Positions 32,274-40,405 of a stretch of 64,000 nt of DNA are shown here, piece after piece. Both the position numbers and the translations under genes were made by a program. Source of the DNA: Chryseobacterium sp. Its GTDB lineage: Bacteria > Bacteroidota > Bacteroidia > Flavobacteriales > Weeksellaceae. The stretch is from NCBI RefSeq assembly GCF_008831505.1, contig NZ_CP044507.1:62001-126000 (forward strand), in the 5' to 3' direction. The notes beneath the pieces are model-generated. The model did no database searches and was not told the DNA's origin. It saw only the letters and a list, made by a program, of their open reading frames with translations. Position 1 is the stretch's first letter. Each line of letters begins with the position of its first letter.

Positions 32274-32290
32274 AAGATATTTTGAACAGA

Positions 32291-32812
32291 ATGAAACCTT
32301 TGCTTTTCCTGCTCTTTCTGATTAACATGCAGATGTGTACACAGTTAAACCAATCCGAAAATACTAAAGTTATGCAAAATACTCCCAAAAATCCTTATTA
32401 CTCCAGAACAGACCGTACAAAACTTACCGTCACAAACGCCGAATGGAAAAAGATCCTGCCACCCGACCTGTATGCAATTGCCCGCGAAGCCGATACGGAA
32501 AGACCTTTTACCGGAAAATATAATGAATTTGATGAGCTGGGTGATTATTACTGTGCAGTTTGCGGTAATCATCTTTTCCGTTCGGATTCTAAATTCTCGT
32601 CTACCTGTGGCTGGCCAAGTTTTTTTGAGGCTGATAAGGAGGGAGTGGCTTATAACCGTGACTCCAGTCATGGGATGGAAAGGATTGAGGTAGTTTGTAA
32701 ACGCTGCGATTCACACTTGGGTCATGTCTTTAACGACGGTCCGCCACCGACAGGGATGCGTTATTGTATGAATTCTGTGAGCCTTGAATTTGTAGGTGAC
32801 TCCCAAAAATAA
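32291..32812 (+). CDS. msrB: Exported peptide-methionine (R)-S-oxide reductase
   Basis: Reduces the R-epimer of methionine sulfoxide in damaged proteins. The 173-residue product starts MKPLLFLLFLINMQMC, a lipoprotein-like signal, so it is probably a periplasmic or membrane-anchored form. The MsrB domain has the structural zinc cysteines (CAVCG and CKRCDSHLGHVF), the CGWPSF active-site loop and the catalytic cysteine in YCMNSVSLEF. A TTG at 32282 is an alternative start but is less likely than the ATG. Periplasmic Msr suggests repair of exported proteins; no thioredoxin partner is adjacent. Confidence 0.92.
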   Translation: MKPLLFLLFLINMQMCTQLNQSENTKVMQNTPKNPYYSRTDRTKLTVTNAEWKKILPPDLYAIAREADTERPFTGKYNEFDELGDYYCAVCGNHLFRSDSKFSSTCGWPSFFEADKEGVAYNRDSSHGMERIEVVCKRCDSHLGHVFNDGPPPTGMRYCMNSVSLEFVGDSQK

Positions 32813-32932: not shown

Positions 32933-33682
32933 ATGCGTAATTTACTTCTGGCTGTCTCAGCCACCTTTATACTGACCACCTCCTTTTACAGAGATACCCG
33001 CGAAGTTTCTGCTGACAATACTATTGAAAATCCTGTGCCGCTTTCGTCCGAAAGTGAAAATTCACCTGTACTTAATGTTGATGCTGCAGCTGAACTCTAC
33101 AAGACAATCAACTTCGGAAGTGGCAATAAGATGAATGAAGAAGTTTTCGGGAAGGCTTTTCAGGGATATTCAAACTTAATGAAAGCCGGAAAACTTGATA
33201 ACGGTGCGGGCATTCTGACCGTTTGTGATTTCTCACTTTCATCAACAAAGAAAAGATTGTGGGTTATTGACATGAATTCTAAAAAGGTTCTTTTCAATGA
33301 GTTGGTAGCCCACGGAAAGAATACAGGAGAAGAATTTGCGACAAAATTCTCGAACACCGAAAGTTCACTGCAAAGCAGCATGGGTTTTTATATTACGGAA
33401 TCTACTTACAATGGTTCTAACGGTTACTCGCTGAAGCTGATCGGGATGGATAAAGGCTACAACGACAACGCGTACAAACGTGCCATCGTAATGCATGGTG
33501 CCGATTATATTAGTGAGGAATTCATTAAGGCACAGAACAGGATTGGCCGCAGTTGGGGCTGCCCCGCCGTGGCACGTGAACTGGCGGAACCTATAATCAA
33601 CACCATAAAAGGTCAGAATGTGCTCTTCATCTACTATCCGGACCAAACATATCTGGAATCTTCTGAATGGCTTAAGGCATAA
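32933..33682 (+). CDS. Exported L,D-transpeptidase-like protein (murein L,D-transpeptidase catalytic domain family)
   Basis: The 249-residue protein has a short N-terminal hydrophobic signal (residues 3-17) and a catalytic domain with IVMHGADYIS (substrate-side His) and SWGCPAV, where the Cys is the nucleophile expected in YkuD-like folds. The spacing between His and Cys (about 25 residues) fits this family. It probably remodels peptidoglycan peptides, but activity on murein has to be inferred. A -7-like TAATTTTG at 32898-32905 precedes it, and a bidirectional hairpin follows. Confidence 0.85.
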   Translation: MRNLLLAVSATFILTTSFYRDTREVSADNTIENPVPLSSESENSPVLNVDAAAELYKTINFGSGNKMNEEVFGKAFQGYSNLMKAGKLDNGAGILTVCDFSLSSTKKRLWVIDMNSKKVLFNELVAHGKNTGEEFATKFSNTESSLQSSMGFYITESTYNGSNGYSLKLIGMDKGYNDNAYKRAIVMHGADYISEEFIKAQNRIGRSWGCPAVARELAEPIINTIKGQNVLFIYYPDQTYLESSEWLKA

Positions 33683-33753: not shown

Positions 33754-36426
33754 TCAGAATTTGAGGTCGAGGCCTATATAAAAATTGGCCGGCATAATGG
33801 GTGCGTACACCATTCCGCCGTCAAAATAATTTCCAAAAGGATTGGAGGCATCAATAATGGGATTGTCCTGGGTAAATGATGTCAGGTTTTCGCCGCCCAC
33901 GTAAACTCTGATGTTTTCCGAGAAGTCACGCGAAATCTGCGCATTCAGCGTCATGAAAGGATCTGAAGTGCGAGCCAGTTGAAATTGGGAAGGATTGGAT
34001 GACAGGTTGGGCAGGTTCTGCTTTCCTACATACTGAAGCGTGGTGTCAAAAGACCAAAAAGCCTTTCTTTCATTGGCTTCGGTGCTGTACGAGGCATTAA
34101 AAAACCCTCTGTTCTTAGCCATAAAAGGTATGTTTCTTCTGCCTTCCAGATAATCTGCCTGCACATCATAGTATTTGTAAGCCAGACGAAGGTCCAGGTT
34201 TTTAGCCGGTGAAAAGTCCAGCTGGGTCTGGAAACTGTTGGCAAAGGATTTTCCGTTCAGATTGTAGAATACAATTTTCTGTGGAGATACGTCAAGGTCT
34301 GTCAGGACCTGATTCTGGAAGTCCGTACGGAAGAAATCAGCTACCAAAGTAGCTTTCCTGCTGAAAAGGTTAAATTCCTGCTGTAGGCTGGCACCGTAAT
34401 TCCATGCAGTTTCAGGCTTCAGGTCATATATCTTACCGCCATTTCCCAGTATTTCGATTTGCCTGTTGGACGCAAAATACTGCTGGTTTTCAGCAAAGAC
34501 ATTCGCTGTGCGGAATCCTCTTCCGGCCGAAAGACGAAGTATGGTCTTCGGTGTAAAATCATATTTAAAATTAACACGCGGTGTGAACTGCGTTCCGGCC
34601 AGATTGTGAAAATCGGCTCTGGCCCCGGCCACCAAAGTGTATTTTTCTCCTGTTAGGGTGTATTCCAGGAAGAGTCCGGGAACAGTTTCTGTGCGGCTAT
34701 AGCCCTCCTGAAGATATACTTCATCAAATTTATCAAACAGGAAACTCGCACCGGCTTTGTATTTGTGGTTGGTGTTTCCCAAGATGCTTTCAAAAATCAG
34801 ATTGGAATAAAAGGTGCTTTGCTTGCCCAAATAATTCCTGTTTCCGAAGAAACTGTCCTGTTCGTGATGGCTGTACTGGTTCATCCAGCCGATACTTTGG
34901 TAGGGTTTGCCTTCAAAAACATACCCCGTCTTGTTCCAGATGTCAAATTTAGCCAGGTCAATTCCGATACCATAAAGACTCTGCTGAGACTGGTCAGTAT
35001 GTCTGTCATAGTCTTTCTGTCCACCGTGTCGCTGATCCTTAACGAAACTGATTCCGAAGTGAGTCCCCAGACCCGAATTTTCCAGGTCATTGTAATTAAG
35101 TAAATAAGCGGCATTGATCTGGTTGCCTGTGGGCTGGTCCAGGAAGCCGTCGTCATTTGTGTCCATTTTGGCTACAGTTGCATTTCCGTGCAGAAGTACT
35201 GTCTGATTCCATTGGCCGGTAAGCGCGCTTGTTGATGTGATATTAGTTTCAAACCTTCCGTTGGCATCGCCAAAGAAATTAAGAGCTGTTTCCGGAGCTG
35301 TCTGAAACTTCAGGAATTCAGTATTGATTTGTCCGGTTATACTTTCATATCCGTTGGTTACCGTACTTCCGCCTTTTGTCAGCTGTATGCCGCCAATCCA
35401 CCTGCCCGGGATTAAGTTTAGTCCGTAAGGTGAGGCCAAACCACGTATTGAGGGCAGCAGTTCCCTTGTGAGCGAGGTGTACTTCTGGTCCAGACCTAAC
35501 ATTTTCAGCTGTTTTGTGCCGGAAACAGCATTACTGAAAGAAACATCTACAGTTGCATTCGTTTCAAAACTTTCTGATAGGTTGCAGCAGGCCGCCTTCA
35601 GCAATTCTTTTTGGCCAATGTTAAAGGTTAGACCCGCAGATTTGCGGCTTAGTGAAGTTGCTTCTTCCTTCTTGGTGATCAAGACACCGTCTATATTATG
35701 GTCAATGTGGTCCTTATGCTGGGTAAAATCCTTGGGAGCTTGCTGTTCATCGCTGTGAACCAGATCACTCTTTACACCAAAAGCCAGTTCGCGGTCGTAG
35801 AGGCAGCATGCGGGCAAAGCATTATACACAGAATCCTTTGCCAGGAATTTTTCATTGTCGTGACCAGCTTCTGCAATTTTCTGCAGAATAATGTCTGAAG
35901 ATGTTTTTGATGGGTCAAAATTGAGCACCACAGTCTGGGTCTCAGAATTCCAGTCCGCAGTTGTGGCGCCGGCGTCTTTGGCGGCCTTTTCAATCCTGGC
36001 TTTGCATGAACCACAGTTTCCTTTTACAAAAAATGTATTCGCAGGTAAGGCGGAAACACTGGCTTGCGGTTCTATGTTGGTCGTTATAAACGAAGGAGTC
36101 CTTTCGTACAGGCAGCAGCCGGGAAGGTTACTGTACACTGAGTCGGGAGCGGTATATTTTTCATTGTCGTGACCAACCTCGGCGATTTTTTTAAGTATCG
36201 TATCTCCAGTAACCCTGGCAGCGTCATATTTTACACTCAGCGTTTGGGTGTTGGCGTTCCAGTTGGCGGATGCCGCACCGGCGCTCTTTGCGGTGGTTTC
36301 TATTCTGTCTTTACACATACCACATTCACCTTTTACTTTGAAGGTGGATTCGGTAATGGTTTGGGCATTTAATAACTGAGTGAAGAAAAGGGATATAATC
36401 AGAACACTTTTTAATAAAGTTTTCAT
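33754..36426 (-). CDS. TonB-dependent receptor with two N-terminal HMA domains
   Basis: Outer-membrane receptor of 890 residues. In order: signal peptide (1-22), HMA-like domain 1 with CGMC at 35-38, a CC pair at 104-105 in LPGCCLYER, HMA-like domain 2 with CGSC at 138-141, a second CC pair at 207-208 in LPACCLYDR, a linker with His residues and KAACC at 278-281, then a TonB plug (LPSIRGLASPYGLNLIPGRW, GYESITGQINTEFL) and a 22-strand-type barrel ending in FYIGLDLKF. The two HMA-plus-CCLY units are tandem repeats of about 103 residues. HMA domains bind soft metals such as Cu(I), so copper or a related metal is the likely cargo. Last gene of a three-gene operon. Confidence 0.88.
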   Translation of the reverse strand: MKTLLKSVLIISLFFTQLLNAQTITESTFKVKGECGMCKDRIETTAKSAGAASANWNANTQTLSVKYDAARVTGDTILKKIAEVGHDNEKYTAPDSVYSNLPGCCLYERTPSFITTNIEPQASVSALPANTFFVKGNCGSCKARIEKAAKDAGATTADWNSETQTVVLNFDPSKTSSDIILQKIAEAGHDNEKFLAKDSVYNALPACCLYDRELAFGVKSDLVHSDEQQAPKDFTQHKDHIDHNIDGVLITKKEEATSLSRKSAGLTFNIGQKELLKAACCNLSESFETNATVDVSFSNAVSGTKQLKMLGLDQKYTSLTRELLPSIRGLASPYGLNLIPGRWIGGIQLTKGGSTVTNGYESITGQINTEFLKFQTAPETALNFFGDANGRFETNITSTSALTGQWNQTVLLHGNATVAKMDTNDDGFLDQPTGNQINAAYLLNYNDLENSGLGTHFGISFVKDQRHGGQKDYDRHTDQSQQSLYGIGIDLAKFDIWNKTGYVFEGKPYQSIGWMNQYSHHEQDSFFGNRNYLGKQSTFYSNLIFESILGNTNHKYKAGASFLFDKFDEVYLQEGYSRTETVPGLFLEYTLTGEKYTLVAGARADFHNLAGTQFTPRVNFKYDFTPKTILRLSAGRGFRTANVFAENQQYFASNRQIEILGNGGKIYDLKPETAWNYGASLQQEFNLFSRKATLVADFFRTDFQNQVLTDLDVSPQKIVFYNLNGKSFANSFQTQLDFSPAKNLDLRLAYKYYDVQADYLEGRRNIPFMAKNRGFFNASYSTEANERKAFWSFDTTLQYVGKQNLPNLSSNPSQFQLARTSDPFMTLNAQISRDFSENIRVYVGGENLTSFTQDNPIIDASNPFGNYFDGGMVYAPIMPANFYIGLDLKF

Positions 36427-36494
36427 CGTAAAAATTTAGATTAATTAAAAGAGAATTTGCCCAGTGAACGTACCTTGGGCATAGAATCGGATAA

Positions 36495-36860
36495 TTAACC
36501 TATTTTAGGAGGTTGCCAGATTTTGGCTGCGGCATCGGAAAGTTCGGGGCTTAAATAGCTAAAGGCCTTGCTGTTGTCTGCAGCGGATAAGGTGTTATCT
36601 GTTACCTTAATGTCCTGTGCAATGGAGGCAAAAACCGTGGTAGTGGAGCAGGATTTGCAGCTCGTACAGTCACCTCCACAGGATTTTTTTTCTCCACTAT
36701 GACAAGGCTTGCTATCACTTTCAGGAGAGGGACAGCAGTCTGCGGAACCGGAAACAGAGCAGCAGTCCTGCTGGAGGAGTTGAGCAAAGAGGTTCTGCTT
36801 AGGCATTACAAAAATACCCAAACAGAAAATTAAAATCAGTATGTGAAGTTTCCCTGCCAT
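36495..36860 (-). CDS. Cysteine-rich small exported protein
   Basis: The 121-residue protein has a signal peptide (about 1-26) and a cysteine cluster at residues 33-71: two CC pairs (QDCCS, ADCCPS), CHSG, then SCGGDCTSCKSC, and a C-terminal tail ending WQPPKIG. It resembles the small HYC/CC/PP-type proteins found beside metal-related TonB receptors in Flavobacteriia, though the HYC motif is absent, so the family is uncertain. The cysteine spacing is that of a soft-metal chelator. A -7 element TAATTTTG (36869-36876, reverse) overlaps the 22-base gap to the upstream gene. Confidence 0.65.
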   Translation of the reverse strand: MAGKLHILILIFCLGIFVMPKQNLFAQLLQQDCCSVSGSADCCPSPESDSKPCHSGEKKSCGGDCTSCKSCSTTTVFASIAQDIKVTDNTLSAADNSKAFSYLSPELSDAAAKIWQPPKIG

Positions 36861-36882: not shown

Positions 36883-37539
36883 TTATTTTAAAGGTGCGCC
36901 TACGGCGATATCACATCTGTGTCCGGGCTGGCCATGGGCAGGGTTAAGACCCGCTTTTCCGGTGGTCGCAGCTGCCGGTTTGTTTGCAACGTTATACGCC
37001 ATTGGGTCTGGTGTACCAGTGGCGGGAACTATGCTGGCAGGTGTCGCCGTGCCTGTAGTACTTTTGGCAGGGCTGTTAAGCGGTGCCCCAACGGAGATAT
37101 CGCACCTGTGGCCGGGTTGGCCGTGTGGCGGGTTCATGCCGGGAGCGGTAGTAGGTGGTGGTGTTACATTATAAGCCGCGGGATCTTTCTTCGCCGAATT
37201 AGGATCTACAGTAATGGACTGCTGAGCAGCAGGGCTTTTTGCGGCAGAATTAAGTGGTGCACCTACAGGAATCTCGCATTTATGTCCGGGCTGTCCGTGT
37301 GGAGGGTTGGTGCCGGGTGCTGTTTGCTGTGCTCCGGCGGTGTTCTGTGCCACGCCGGGTACCGATGCCGTTCCACCTGCAGGTAACAGCATATTTGAGG
37401 CTTGGGCCTTTGCTGCATCAGCTTTGCTGTTTGTGGAAGCTGCAGTGTTTGAATCCTTAAGATAAGTGGGCTTCTGGTCTTTGTCACAGGAGTTGAGAGC
37501 CAGAATACTTGCGATTATAAATAGTGTACTAATTTTCAT
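36883..37539 (-). CDS. Lipoprotein with three NPPHGQPGHRC-type repeats
   Basis: The 218-residue product has a lipobox ending LNSC at Cys18. The mature chain is low in complexity (Ala, Pro, Thr, Asn), with three copies of a precise motif: NPPHGQPGHKCEIPVGAPLN, NPPHGQPGHRCDISVGAPLN and NPAHGQPGHRCDIAVGAPLK, the last forming the C-terminus. Each unit offers two His and one Cys, a plausible metal site. The repeats are separated by linkers of about 40-50 residues, two of which carry AYNV. I do not know an assigned function. It is the first gene of the operon with the cysteine-rich protein and the HMA TonB receptor. Confidence 0.7.
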   Translation of the reverse strand: MKISTLFIIASILALNSCDKDQKPTYLKDSNTAASTNSKADAAKAQASNMLLPAGGTASVPGVAQNTAGAQQTAPGTNPPHGQPGHKCEIPVGAPLNSAAKSPAAQQSITVDPNSAKKDPAAYNVTPPPTTAPGMNPPHGQPGHRCDISVGAPLNSPAKSTTGTATPASIVPATGTPDPMAYNVANKPAAATTGKAGLNPAHGQPGHRCDIAVGAPLK

Positions 37540-38140: not shown

Positions 38141-38827
38141 TTAGTTTTTTACCAGCAGGCGGAAACCCTCGCCGTGTACGTTAATGATCTCAAGACCCTC
38201 ATCATCGCGAAGCAGCTTCCGCAGTTTAGCGATATAGACGTCCATACTGCGTGCTGTAAAATAATTTTCCTTTTTCCAGATTTTCCTGAGTGCCAGATCC
38301 CGCGGCATGAAATCGTTTCGGTGCTGACAAAGTAGCTTCAGGAGTTCGTTTTCCTTTGGTGAAAGTTTATATTCTTCATCGCCCACGCGGAGTTGCCTCA
38401 ACATGGAATCGAAGAAAATATTACTGATCTTGAACTGTTCCTGTTCGTCATTTTCTACCGCTGCGCTGCGCTGCAGGATGGCCTTGATCTTATACAGCAG
38501 TAATTCCGTATCAAAAGGCTTTGTAATATAATCATCAGCTCCCAACTGATACCCCTTCAGGATATCTTCCCGGAGGTTTTTGGCAGTAAGGAAAATGATG
38601 GGTGTGTTCTTGTCTATCTTCTTCACGTCTTCGGCGAGTGAGAAGCCGTCTTTCTTAGGCATCATCACATCAAAGATGCAAATGTCGAATTCATTCTCGG
38701 TAAATTCCTTCAAACCCTGCTCTCCATCCACTGCAAGGGTCACCTCGAAGTTATTGATGGTTAAGTAGTCCTTCAGAACTGCGCCAAAACTTTGGTCGTC
38801 TTCTACCAGTAGGATCCTGTTATTCAT
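38141..38827 (-). CDS. Response regulator, OmpR family (RprY-like)
   Basis: DNA-binding regulator of 228 residues. The receiver domain has acidic residues DD at 10-11, the phospho-acceptor Asp53 in IFDVMMPKKDG, Thr in FLTAK and Lys in ITKPFD. The C-terminal winged helix runs from about residue 128 with KLSPKENELLKLL and ARSMDVYIAKLRKLL. It is co-directional with, and 30 bases after, the histidine kinase gene. In Bacteroidota this pair corresponds to RprXY, linked to envelope and stress gene control; targets here are unknown. Confidence 0.92.
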   Translation of the reverse strand: MNNRILLVEDDQSFGAVLKDYLTINNFEVTLAVDGEQGLKEFTENEFDICIFDVMMPKKDGFSLAEDVKKIDKNTPIIFLTAKNLREDILKGYQLGADDYITKPFDTELLLYKIKAILQRSAAVENDEQEQFKISNIFFDSMLRQLRVGDEEYKLSPKENELLKLLCQHRNDFMPRDLALRKIWKKENYFTARSMDVYIAKLRKLLRDDEGLEIINVHGEGFRLLVKN

Positions 38828-38857: not shown

Positions 38858-40405
38858 TTATACATGATTCATAGGTAGTTTTATGGTGAAAGTACTTCCT
38901 TTTCCTTTACGCGATTCTACCAGAACCTGTCCTTTATGGAGTTCAATGATTTTCTTTACGTAGGACAGACCTAAGCCCTGACCTTTCACATTGTGGATGT
39001 TACCTGTTTCCTCTCGGAAGAACTTATCAAAAATCCGTTTGTTGTTGTCCACATCCAGACCAATACCTTTGTCTGAAATTTCAATTACATACCAGTTTCC
39101 TTCATTTTTGGTCTTTACATTTATCTGAGGTGTTTCCGGCGAATACTTATTGGCATTGTCCAGAAGGTTGATCAGTGCATTGGATATATGGAATTCGTCC
39201 ACTTTCACAATATATCGGTCTGCCGTGAACTCCTGTTCCAGCGTACCGCTGCGCTGTGCAATGATGAGGCCGAAACTTTCGGTAATTTCTTTGATGAGGT
39301 TTCGCAGGTTTGTTTCCTTCAGGAAAAGCTGTACTTCGTTTCTTTCCAGCTTGCTCATGTTCAGTACATTTTCCACCTGCTTTTTCATGCGCAGGTTTTC
39401 CTGTTTGATGAGTTGCGAATAATACTTCACCTTCTCCGGGTTGGTGGCAATTTTATCATTGGCCAGCGAATCTGTAGCTACCGAAATGGTGGCCAGCGGC
39501 GTCTTGAACTCGTGCGACATGTTATTGATGAAATCCGTTTTAACCTCAGCAATTTTTTTTTGCCTCATCATGTAATTGATGGAAATAATGTAGATTCCAA
39601 GGATGGTGAGCAGAGACATAAAAGTTCCCAGCAGCATAGGAAGATTGTTTTTGGCCAGTGAATAGCCTTTTCTGGGAAATACTAAGGAGAGGCTGTAGAT
39701 GGTCCGGTCTTTACTGTCGGAAAAAATGGGGTAAGTGTAGCTGTCGGCATTTTTCTCCACTTTAAAGATCTCATTGGCTACCGGAGTCAGATTGTTCCGG
39801 CTGTCCAGAATTCCGTAGCCGAATTTGGTATCTATGCCCTTAAGGCGGAGTTCCCGCGATATCACAGAATCCAGTACTTCGGGCACAACACGTTTTTCCA
39901 CCGGCTGATTAATTCCTATAAGCTGCACAAACTCTCTAAGCGTATATTCGCCGCTTTGTATGGACCTGTTCAGGTCTTCTGTAAGAAGTTCGGGCGCGGA
40001 GGAATCTCTACGCAATCGTACAAGTGCCTCATCGGTGTACATGGTAGTCACCTTCAGGCTGTCGCCGCGGTGTGAAATGGGAATATCCTTATTTTCAATA
40101 ATATTCTTGGAGTAGGTTATGGTACGACGGCTGGCCGAATCCTCCACCTGCTGGATGGCTGTTATTGAGGGCTGAGTGCTGGAAGTGACGTCTTTGTCCA
40201 GATTTTTATACTGCGCATAATACTTTTCAACCTCTATATCCGTCATTTTTTTGGCTGATGATTCCAATGCCGCGTGCACCTTATTCGAAAAATCCTGTTC
40301 CAATGCTTCATAGTAGCTTTTGAGCCAGTAAAACTGCAGCGCAACAAAAACCACCAGAGAGATGGTCATAAAAACAGATATGATGGGAATAAATTTATTG
40401 TTCAT
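38858..40405 (-). CDS. Sensor histidine kinase (RprX-like)
   Basis: The 515-residue membrane kinase has a transmembrane helix at about 8-28, a periplasmic sensor region (30-255), a second helix (about 256-278) and a cytosolic core. The phospho-acceptor is His298 in MSHEFKTPLATIS; the N box NLLDNANKYSPE, G1 box DKGIGLDV and G2 box GQGLGLSYVKKI are intact. It is upstream of its cognate OmpR-type regulator. The sensed signal is unknown. Confidence 0.92.
   Translation of the reverse strand: MNNKFIPIISVFMTISLVVFVALQFYWLKSYYEALEQDFSNKVHAALESSAKKMTDIEVEKYYAQYKNLDKDVTSSTQPSITAIQQVEDSASRRTITYSKNIIENKDIPISHRGDSLKVTTMYTDEALVRLRRDSSAPELLTEDLNRSIQSGEYTLREFVQLIGINQPVEKRVVPEVLDSVISRELRLKGIDTKFGYGILDSRNNLTPVANEIFKVEKNADSYTYPIFSDSKDRTIYSLSLVFPRKGYSLAKNNLPMLLGTFMSLLTILGIYIISINYMMRQKKIAEVKTDFINNMSHEFKTPLATISVATDSLANDKIATNPEKVKYYSQLIKQENLRMKKQVENVLNMSKLERNEVQLFLKETNLRNLIKEITESFGLIIAQRSGTLEQEFTADRYIVKVDEFHISNALINLLDNANKYSPETPQINVKTKNEGNWYVIEISDKGIGLDVDNNKRIFDKFFREETGNIHNVKGQGLGLSYVKKIIELHKGQVLVESRKGKGSTFTIKLPMNHV

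Follow-up and report, generated by a model that had tools for sequence, protein, structure and literature searches.

A family of lipoproteins with repeated His-His-Cys units, encoded near an HMA-fused TonB-dependent receptor in Weeksellaceae and possibly involved in metal capture

In the window, the whole stretch of 64,000 nucleotides of Chryseobacterium sp. DNA analyzed here, we identified a lipoprotein gene, LIPO, whose product carries three near-identical copies of a short unit. We observed a lipoprotein architecture, a conserved unit, metal-type domains in the partner proteins and, for 8 of the 11 LIPO-carrying genera of the host family (Weeksellaceae), linkage to a Cys-rich gene and an HMA-fused TonB-dependent receptor gene. 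We infer metal binding by the unit, copper as the metal, an uptake direction and a hand-off to the receptor. Capture or buffering of metal by LIPO for the receptor system is the reading that we put forward tentatively, as a little short of an even chance.

LIPO (36883..37539, minus strand, as are all the features given below for the window) encodes a protein of 218 aa without a Pfam family above cut-off. According to the translation, a signal peptide and a lipobox (L-N-S-C, with the codon of Cys18 at 37486..37488) are followed by an Ala/Thr/Pro/Ser-rich chain bearing the three units. Unit 1 (residues 78-96, NPPHGQPGHKCEIPVGAPL) is encoded at 37252..37308, unit 2 (residues 136-154, NPPHGQPGHRCDISVGAPL) at 37078..37134 and unit 3 (residues 199-217, NPAHGQPGHRCDIAVGAPL) at 36889..36945. 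All follow the pattern N-P-x-H-G-Q-P-G-H-x-C-x-I-x-V-G-A-P-L, and each contains two His and one Cys. The translation bears out the three-copy repeat that an earlier note on this DNA had described in a lipoprotein; the same note placed one unit at the exact C-terminus, which holds to within one residue, a single Lys standing between unit 3 and the stop codon. The linkers (134 aa) contain no His and no Cys, and all the His and Cys of the mature chain sit inside the units, the lipid-bearing Cys excepted. At the DNA level, only 42-43 of 57 bases were identical between any two unit-coding stretches, and of the 15-17 residues that agree, 8-10 are written with different, synonymous codons. Since the units are alike in protein and diverged in DNA, their likeness is held by selection and does not result from a recent DNA duplication. 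When the genome of the host (2.76 Mb) was searched with the unit, the three matches at E 1.1e-8 or better were all LIPO's own and no further copy was found, the next match having an E of 0.66 and 50% identity.

The unit was found in 209 of 296 host-family genomes, which excludes chance, and in 11 of 33 genera of this family. The family is spread through one class: a sample of 345 genomes from it had 35 carriers (16 of 178 genera), and a sample of the phylum, which overlaps the former in genomes, had 32 carriers among 395 (10 of 171 genera). Named carriers include Chryseobacterium, Pedobacter and MAGs labelled Weeksellaceae, Saprospiraceae and Flavobacteriaceae, the closest named carrier being a Weeksellaceae MAG, on which our assignment of the host family (f1) to Weeksellaceae is based. 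Among the matches listed, unit-bearing open frames ranged from 110 to 288 codons, so that no fusion to a larger enzyme was seen there. Three copies of the unit, a loop of 22 residues, are the commonest count and not a rule: 53 of 93 distinct family proteins have three, 38 have two and 2 have one.

We then considered the conservation of the unit. N, P, H, G, H, C, V and G were identical in 158 of 158 distinct units, and P9 (145/158), P20 (149/158) and L21 (155/158) were nearly invariant. Extending the set to 105 proteins gave 261 unit windows, every one of them with both His and the Cys; this includes the degenerate copies of two loci (L172 and L173). These values include one unit per protein that is invariant by construction, because proteins entered the 93-member set through one unit matching NP.HG...H.C plus VG and the 105-member set through one unit matching NP.HG...H.C. 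The units free of this entry condition, 144 of 237 in the smaller set and 156 of 261 in the larger, were found allowing up to 4 or 5 mismatches over 11 lettered positions, and many of the sampled proteins come from related species. With the lipobox set aside, proteins had as many Cys as units in 53 of 53 cases with three units and in 37 of 38 cases with two (90/91 together). The linkers were poorly conserved. As N, P, V and G are kept as strictly as the presumed ligands, the unit is more than a bare metal site.

The protein was compared with known families. DUF4402 (PF14352) matched LIPO at E 0.0015 with 19.6 bits, under the Pfam gathering cut-off of 25.2, and membership was rejected on this score. 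No NCBIfam model matched at E ≤ 1. Searches of PDB sequences with profiles of 18 and 24 units gave no credible relative, the 18-unit profile yielding one zinc-finger chance match (E 3.5), and the plasmid collection gave none either (one match at E 0.07). The unit motif strings were absent from 5.39 million open-access papers, and no description of LIPO was found in the open-access literature. LIPO thus belongs to a real and unnamed family, which looks undescribed by the database and open-literature searches made. Homology to HMBD (PF19335), suggested by the PG-x-C...G...L spacing, was rejected by profile comparison (probability 0.5% by hhalign when the unit profile was set against the five HMBD copies taken from the own genome), and Pfam gave no HMBD match in LIPO at E ≤ 1. 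An HMA/CopZ metallochaperone was also rejected: LIPO has no C-x-x-C and no HMA match at E ≤ 1, and the unit models contain neither helix nor strand. H-x-x-M, the ligand motif of SilE-type sponges, is absent from the LIPO sequence. Overall, LIPO would work like a short-motif metal sponge yet stands outside the HMBD, HMA and SilE families by the tests made.

The predicted structure was analyzed with AlphaFold2. In models of the whole protein (10 sequences), block pLDDT was 35-55 for the linkers and 60-82 for the units. For the unit alone (24 sequences), modelled as a 32-residue peptide without ligand, mean pLDDT was 86.1 (81-86 across the five models), and half of the residues (16 of 32) reached at least 90. 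Neither helix nor strand was present in the lone unit, whose loop is closed by a bridge from residue 6 to residue 24. With AlphaFold2, the unit is thus predicted with confidence in the absence of metal, and the combination of confident units and low-pLDDT linkers fits loops on a disordered chain. No match was returned by Foldseek against the PDB for the whole-protein or the lone-unit models.

Concerning cell location, the lipobox pattern was present in 89 of 93 family proteins, 53 of these 89 having at least two acidic residues at positions +2 to +6 and 27 having C-x-K-(D/E)2 after the lipobox. Extracts of one study describe C-x-K-(D/E)2 as the optimal surface export signal in Capnocytophaga (PMC5080379). 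Surface exposure of many members is plausible from these signals; the residues of the window's LIPO, C-D-K-D-Q, fit the export signal only in part.

In the window, LIPO is followed after 22 bp by a gene for an exported Cys-rich protein of 121 aa with 10 Cys (36495..36860) and, 68 bp past the latter, by a gene for a TonB-dependent receptor of 890 aa with two N-terminal HMA domains (33754..36426). These spacings bear out the operon proposed earlier. Upstream of LIPO lie an OmpR-type response regulator gene (38141..38827) and a histidine kinase gene (38858..40405), which are neighbours in part of the family only and whose membership is uncertain. A two-component system of Riemerella is said to be conserved across Flavobacteriaceae in extracts of its description (PMC5399024); we do not equate it with this pair. 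Genes for SelR (methionine sulfoxide reductase B, 32282-32812) and a YkuD-type transpeptidase (32933-33682) stand beside the receptor operon, and they occur near it in several genera.

To describe this neighbourhood across the host family, stretches of 16-26 kb were inspected in 34 genomes (the window, L035-L037, L042, L046, L047, L049-L060, L108, L109 and L181-L193; L035 and L045 are the same genome and were counted once, and L036, L037 and L042, named Chryseobacterium, were counted with genus g20). The loci were chosen or returned by the search tool and are not a random sample. LIPO was near the Cys-rich gene and the HMA-fused receptor gene in 25 of 34 genomes, representing 8 of 11 genera. 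Neither gene was near LIPO in the other 9 genomes, which belong to genera g10, g18 and g28; these three genera carry both LIPO and the receptor, unlinked. Three gene orders were observed. In most genomes, LIPO, the Cys-rich gene and the receptor gene followed each other behind the two-component genes. In six g8 genomes and in one genome of g26 (G026), the Cys-rich gene and the receptor gene preceded LIPO, and the two-component genes were not in the stretch. In the single g32 genome, LIPO was followed about 1 kb on by a YkuD gene on the opposite strand, then by the Cys-rich gene and the receptor gene.

No operator common to genera was seen in alignments upstream of LIPO. A perfect palindrome (TTAGCAAAAC, 9-10 bases, GTTTTGCTAA) was found at one place per genome in 6 of 8 Chryseobacterium-type genomes, with no exact match in the 2 others. 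It lies upstream of LIPO in L055, L056, L059 and L060 (for example at G214:C9:323515-323544 and G237:C1:324665-324694), about 10-26 bp from the called start in the four genomes checked (G111, G214, G237 and G284). Either an operator or the response-regulator gene's terminator could account for this palindrome.

The partner proteins were then examined. In the receptor, Pfam recognized HMA (E 6.4e-13, two stretches) and TonB_dep_Rec_b-barrel (E 3.2e-26). Its NCBIfam matches, of HMA/CopZ type and weakly of FepA type, were all under their cut-offs, and no copper-receptor model was among them. Each HMA domain (in 33754-36426) is followed by Leu-Pro-x-Cys-Cys-Leu-Tyr, giving a CxxC plus a Cys pair per module. 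For the Cys-rich protein, the best Pfam match (E 0.022) stayed under its cut-off. None of the NCBIfam models matched it at E ≤ 1, which includes HYC_CC_PP (NF047658, cut-off 28 bits), a candidate rejected on this result. Its gene was beside the receptor gene in the 19 host-family loci of one tblastn set (two from the same genome), and it holds the place taken by HYC_CC_PP beside receptor relatives elsewhere.

Homologues of the receptor's barrel and plug were present in 62 of 80 genomes outside the host family (E ≤ 1e-60); they align from about residue 216-274 of the query, hence without the two HMA domains. Among ten such relatives whose surroundings were examined (L194-L203), HYC_CC_PP was adjacent in seven (L195-L199, L202 and L203), the match covering 7 of 7 small Cys-containing proteins tested, with L194, L200 and L201 outside this test. 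Separate HMA proteins of 113-125 aa, above the Pfam cut-off, adjoined the receptor relative in six of the ten (L195, L196, L199, L201, L202 and L203), and none was recognized in L197 and L198; the gene calls resolved these eight loci, all but L194 and L200. Two more genes of the L202 cluster encode an AraC-type regulator and a P-type ATPase; the ATPase has HMA and HMBD domains and scored 577 bits with the copper-ATPase model TIGR01511 (cut-off 397). We observed that HYC_CC_PP, a TonB receptor and a small exported HMA protein form a module recurring in several families of the class; in the host-family counterpart (33754-36860 of the window), HMA is fused onto the receptor and a different Cys-rich protein occupies the HYC_CC_PP place. 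A Cys-Cys plug motif, A-A-C-C-N-L-S-E-S-F, occurs in five of the ten relatives and as a variant in one, the others being without a pattern match. The fusion of HMA domains to the receptor in the host family is good evidence that they act together. Judged by these domain types, the receptor is probably a copper receptor.

Within the host family, a receptor homologue (E ≤ 1e-150) was detected in 285 of 296 genomes. It was absent from none of 209 LIPO-positive genomes and from 11 of 87 LIPO-negative ones. The receptor occurs without LIPO in 16 genera, so LIPO is dispensable for it. LIPO is an optional partner of a near-universal receptor of the host family.

Outside the host family, we analyzed 43 loci, each over 10 kb (L038-L040, L043, L044, L092-L107, L110, L111 and L134-L153). 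The receptor, the HMA domains and the Cys-rich protein were found in none of them by tblastn at E ≤ 1e-5. Pfam analysis of 19 neighbours in these loci revealed one HMA chaperone (L107) and one AcrB-type pump (L100, two genes from LIPO), the rest being without a metal role. The chaperone, of 74 aa (L107:9457-9681), is convergent with LIPO at a distance of 20 bp, and this was the one outside LIPO seen with a metal-type neighbour. In L096 (11216-15613), LIPO and a 129-aa gene face genes for a putative multihaem cytochrome and an iron-sulfur respiratory-complex subunit, named from motifs only. Clustering of the neighbours in 42 of the 43 loci (L146 left out), together with Pfam on the 19, revealed no partner common to several families. 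Synteny was confined to genera or families and involved genes of unrelated kinds, among them those for DinB, a polysaccharide transporter, lycopene cyclase, CIA30, VF530 and a response regulator. In family f2, the distance between LIPO and the receptor homologue was about 110 to 910 kb in the ten genomes with both genes on one contig, among the matches listed.

At the level of whole genomes outside the host family, a receptor homologue (E ≤ 1e-60) was present in 42 of 49 LIPO-positive versus 20 of 31 LIPO-negative genomes, uncorrected for kinship; LIPO thus occurred without one in 7 of the 49. The direction fits a co-occurrence, on which we do not lean because of the uncorrected sample. What weakens the metal reading most is that the LIPO-receptor association, although strong, is restricted to one family. 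The earlier note had proposed surface metal capture or hand-off, a proposal that our results support in part. His and Cys, kept in 261 of 261 unit windows, and the linkage to the receptor and Cys-rich genes in 8 of 11 genera speak for this proposal, and the absence of such linkage from all 43 outside loci speaks against it under the refuting condition that the note itself had set. The metal-related neighbours expected around the motif were indeed found in those 8 genera when the neighbours were listed, and were missing from g10, g18, g28 and the outside loci, the L107 chaperone apart.

In the mechanism that we propose, LIPO would hold at the outer membrane two or three near-identical small loops, strung along a flexible chain rich in Ala, Pro and Thr. 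Each, about 20 residues long and closed on itself, would offer two His and one Cys to one ion, which would be a soft or borderline metal and most likely copper. In the Chryseobacterium group, LIPO would collect or buffer this metal at the outer membrane, and would do so on the cell surface in members with a suitable export signal. The HMA-fused receptor, with its HMA domains, would bring in metal from LIPO, the Cys-rich protein working alongside. In other families of the class, a solitary LIPO might supply that system from a distant locus, in trans, or simply buffer metal. We infer copper over other thiophilic metals from the types of the partner domains. A bolder version would make the unit N-P-x-H-G-x-P-x-H-x-C-x3-V-G-x-P-L an undescribed, metal-nucleated microdomain of about 20 residues, a class-wide tethered copper-binding bead. 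In the Chryseobacterium group this bead would join the HMA-fused receptor and the Cys-rich protein in a system dedicated to capturing copper and taking it up at the outer membrane; we consider this version doubtful.

Other explanations were weighed against the same observations. The invariance of N, P, G, V and G and the near-invariance of P and L, besides the ligands, would also suit a peptide tag or docking loop for a partner or an envelope structure, in which His and Cys would be part of the shape, the repeats would raise avidity and the receptor link would be a lineage accident. The final unit lies 0-3 residues from the C-terminus in 87 of 93 proteins, which agrees with such a loop, as does the lack of a partner common to families outside the host family. 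We regard this explanation as rather unlikely, however: even degenerate units retain His and Cys, and the rearrangements around the same receptor pair in one family exceed what accident would give.

An unlikely role, in our estimation, is one in defence, LIPO being a disordered, SilE-like sponge that mops up a surplus of copper, or of some other thiophilic metal, in the envelope and not an uptake factor. Only two or three sites are available per molecule, the partner is a TonB receptor, which is an importer class, and no metal efflux gene was found among the 19 Pfam-scanned neighbours or by motif in the outside loci, apart from the AcrB-type pump of L100. Points on the other side are the low-confidence linkers with repeated small ligand sets, the copper-family P-type ATPase at one related receptor locus, and SilE itself, which is disordered and folds on Ag+ according to extracts of its description (PMC5008109). 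LIPO might also be a precursor holding several copies of a pheromone or a metal-chelating peptide, each unit being excised and perhaps modified. Several near-identical short units between poorly conserved linkers recall such precursors. This is very improbable, given that no modifying enzyme or protease recurs beside LIPO across families in the loci listed, that no common cleavage site was seen by eye in the linkers and that one unit is placed at the C-terminus. Some other function takes up the remaining probability.

Repeated small metal sites on a flexible chain are an idea already known, and metal capture by LIPO can be compared with several systems. HMBD resembles LIPO in being a short Cys/His module repeated on Ala/Pro-rich linkers; its motifs, C-P-M (within Y-x-C-P-M-H) and C-P-x-C-G-M, are unrelated to the LIPO unit. 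The host encodes a multicopper-oxidase-like protein (G000:C1:1635155-1635775, L154; named from motifs only) with three HMBD modules on Ala/Pro/Lys-rich linkers, which is an architectural twin of LIPO with an unrelated unit. SilE too is exported and for the most part disordered, and short ligand motifs recur along its chain, as extracts of the same study describe (PMC5008109). In contrast, SilE is periplasmic with His/Met motifs, and LIPO is a lipoprotein with His-His-Cys units, lacking H-x-x-M and carrying an AlphaFold2-confident loop with invariant N, P, V and G. If LIPO binds copper, its unit would be a very small repeat acting as a defined metal site outside the CxxC and Met-rich motifs, and a single short peptide, amenable to synthesis, titration and mutation, would open the copper handling of a large bacterial class to direct study. 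Copper passage across the Gram-negative outer membrane is poorly known.

OprC and CrtA are copper-importing TonB receptors in extracts of the papers describing them (PMC8610252, PMC12914433). Copper is also the proposed cargo of LIPO's partner receptor, which differs in bearing two HMA domains. HmuY and HmuR form a lipoprotein-TonB receptor couple, and HmuY, like BtuG and BtuH, binds its ligand through a folded domain. LIPO, in contrast, consists of linkers and loops and is unlinked to the receptor outside one family. BtuG and BtuH are described, in extracts of PMC6143338 and PMC8941943, as Bacteroidota surface lipoproteins paired with the TonB receptor BtuB. In both the BtuG/BtuH-BtuB and the HmuY-HmuR systems, as at the LIPO locus of the window, the lipoprotein gene adjoins the TonB receptor gene, and surface capture of a ligand is the role proposed for LIPO. 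If the bolder version given above is true, the LIPO-receptor system would be the copper counterpart of the heme and vitamin B12 lipoprotein-receptor pairs.
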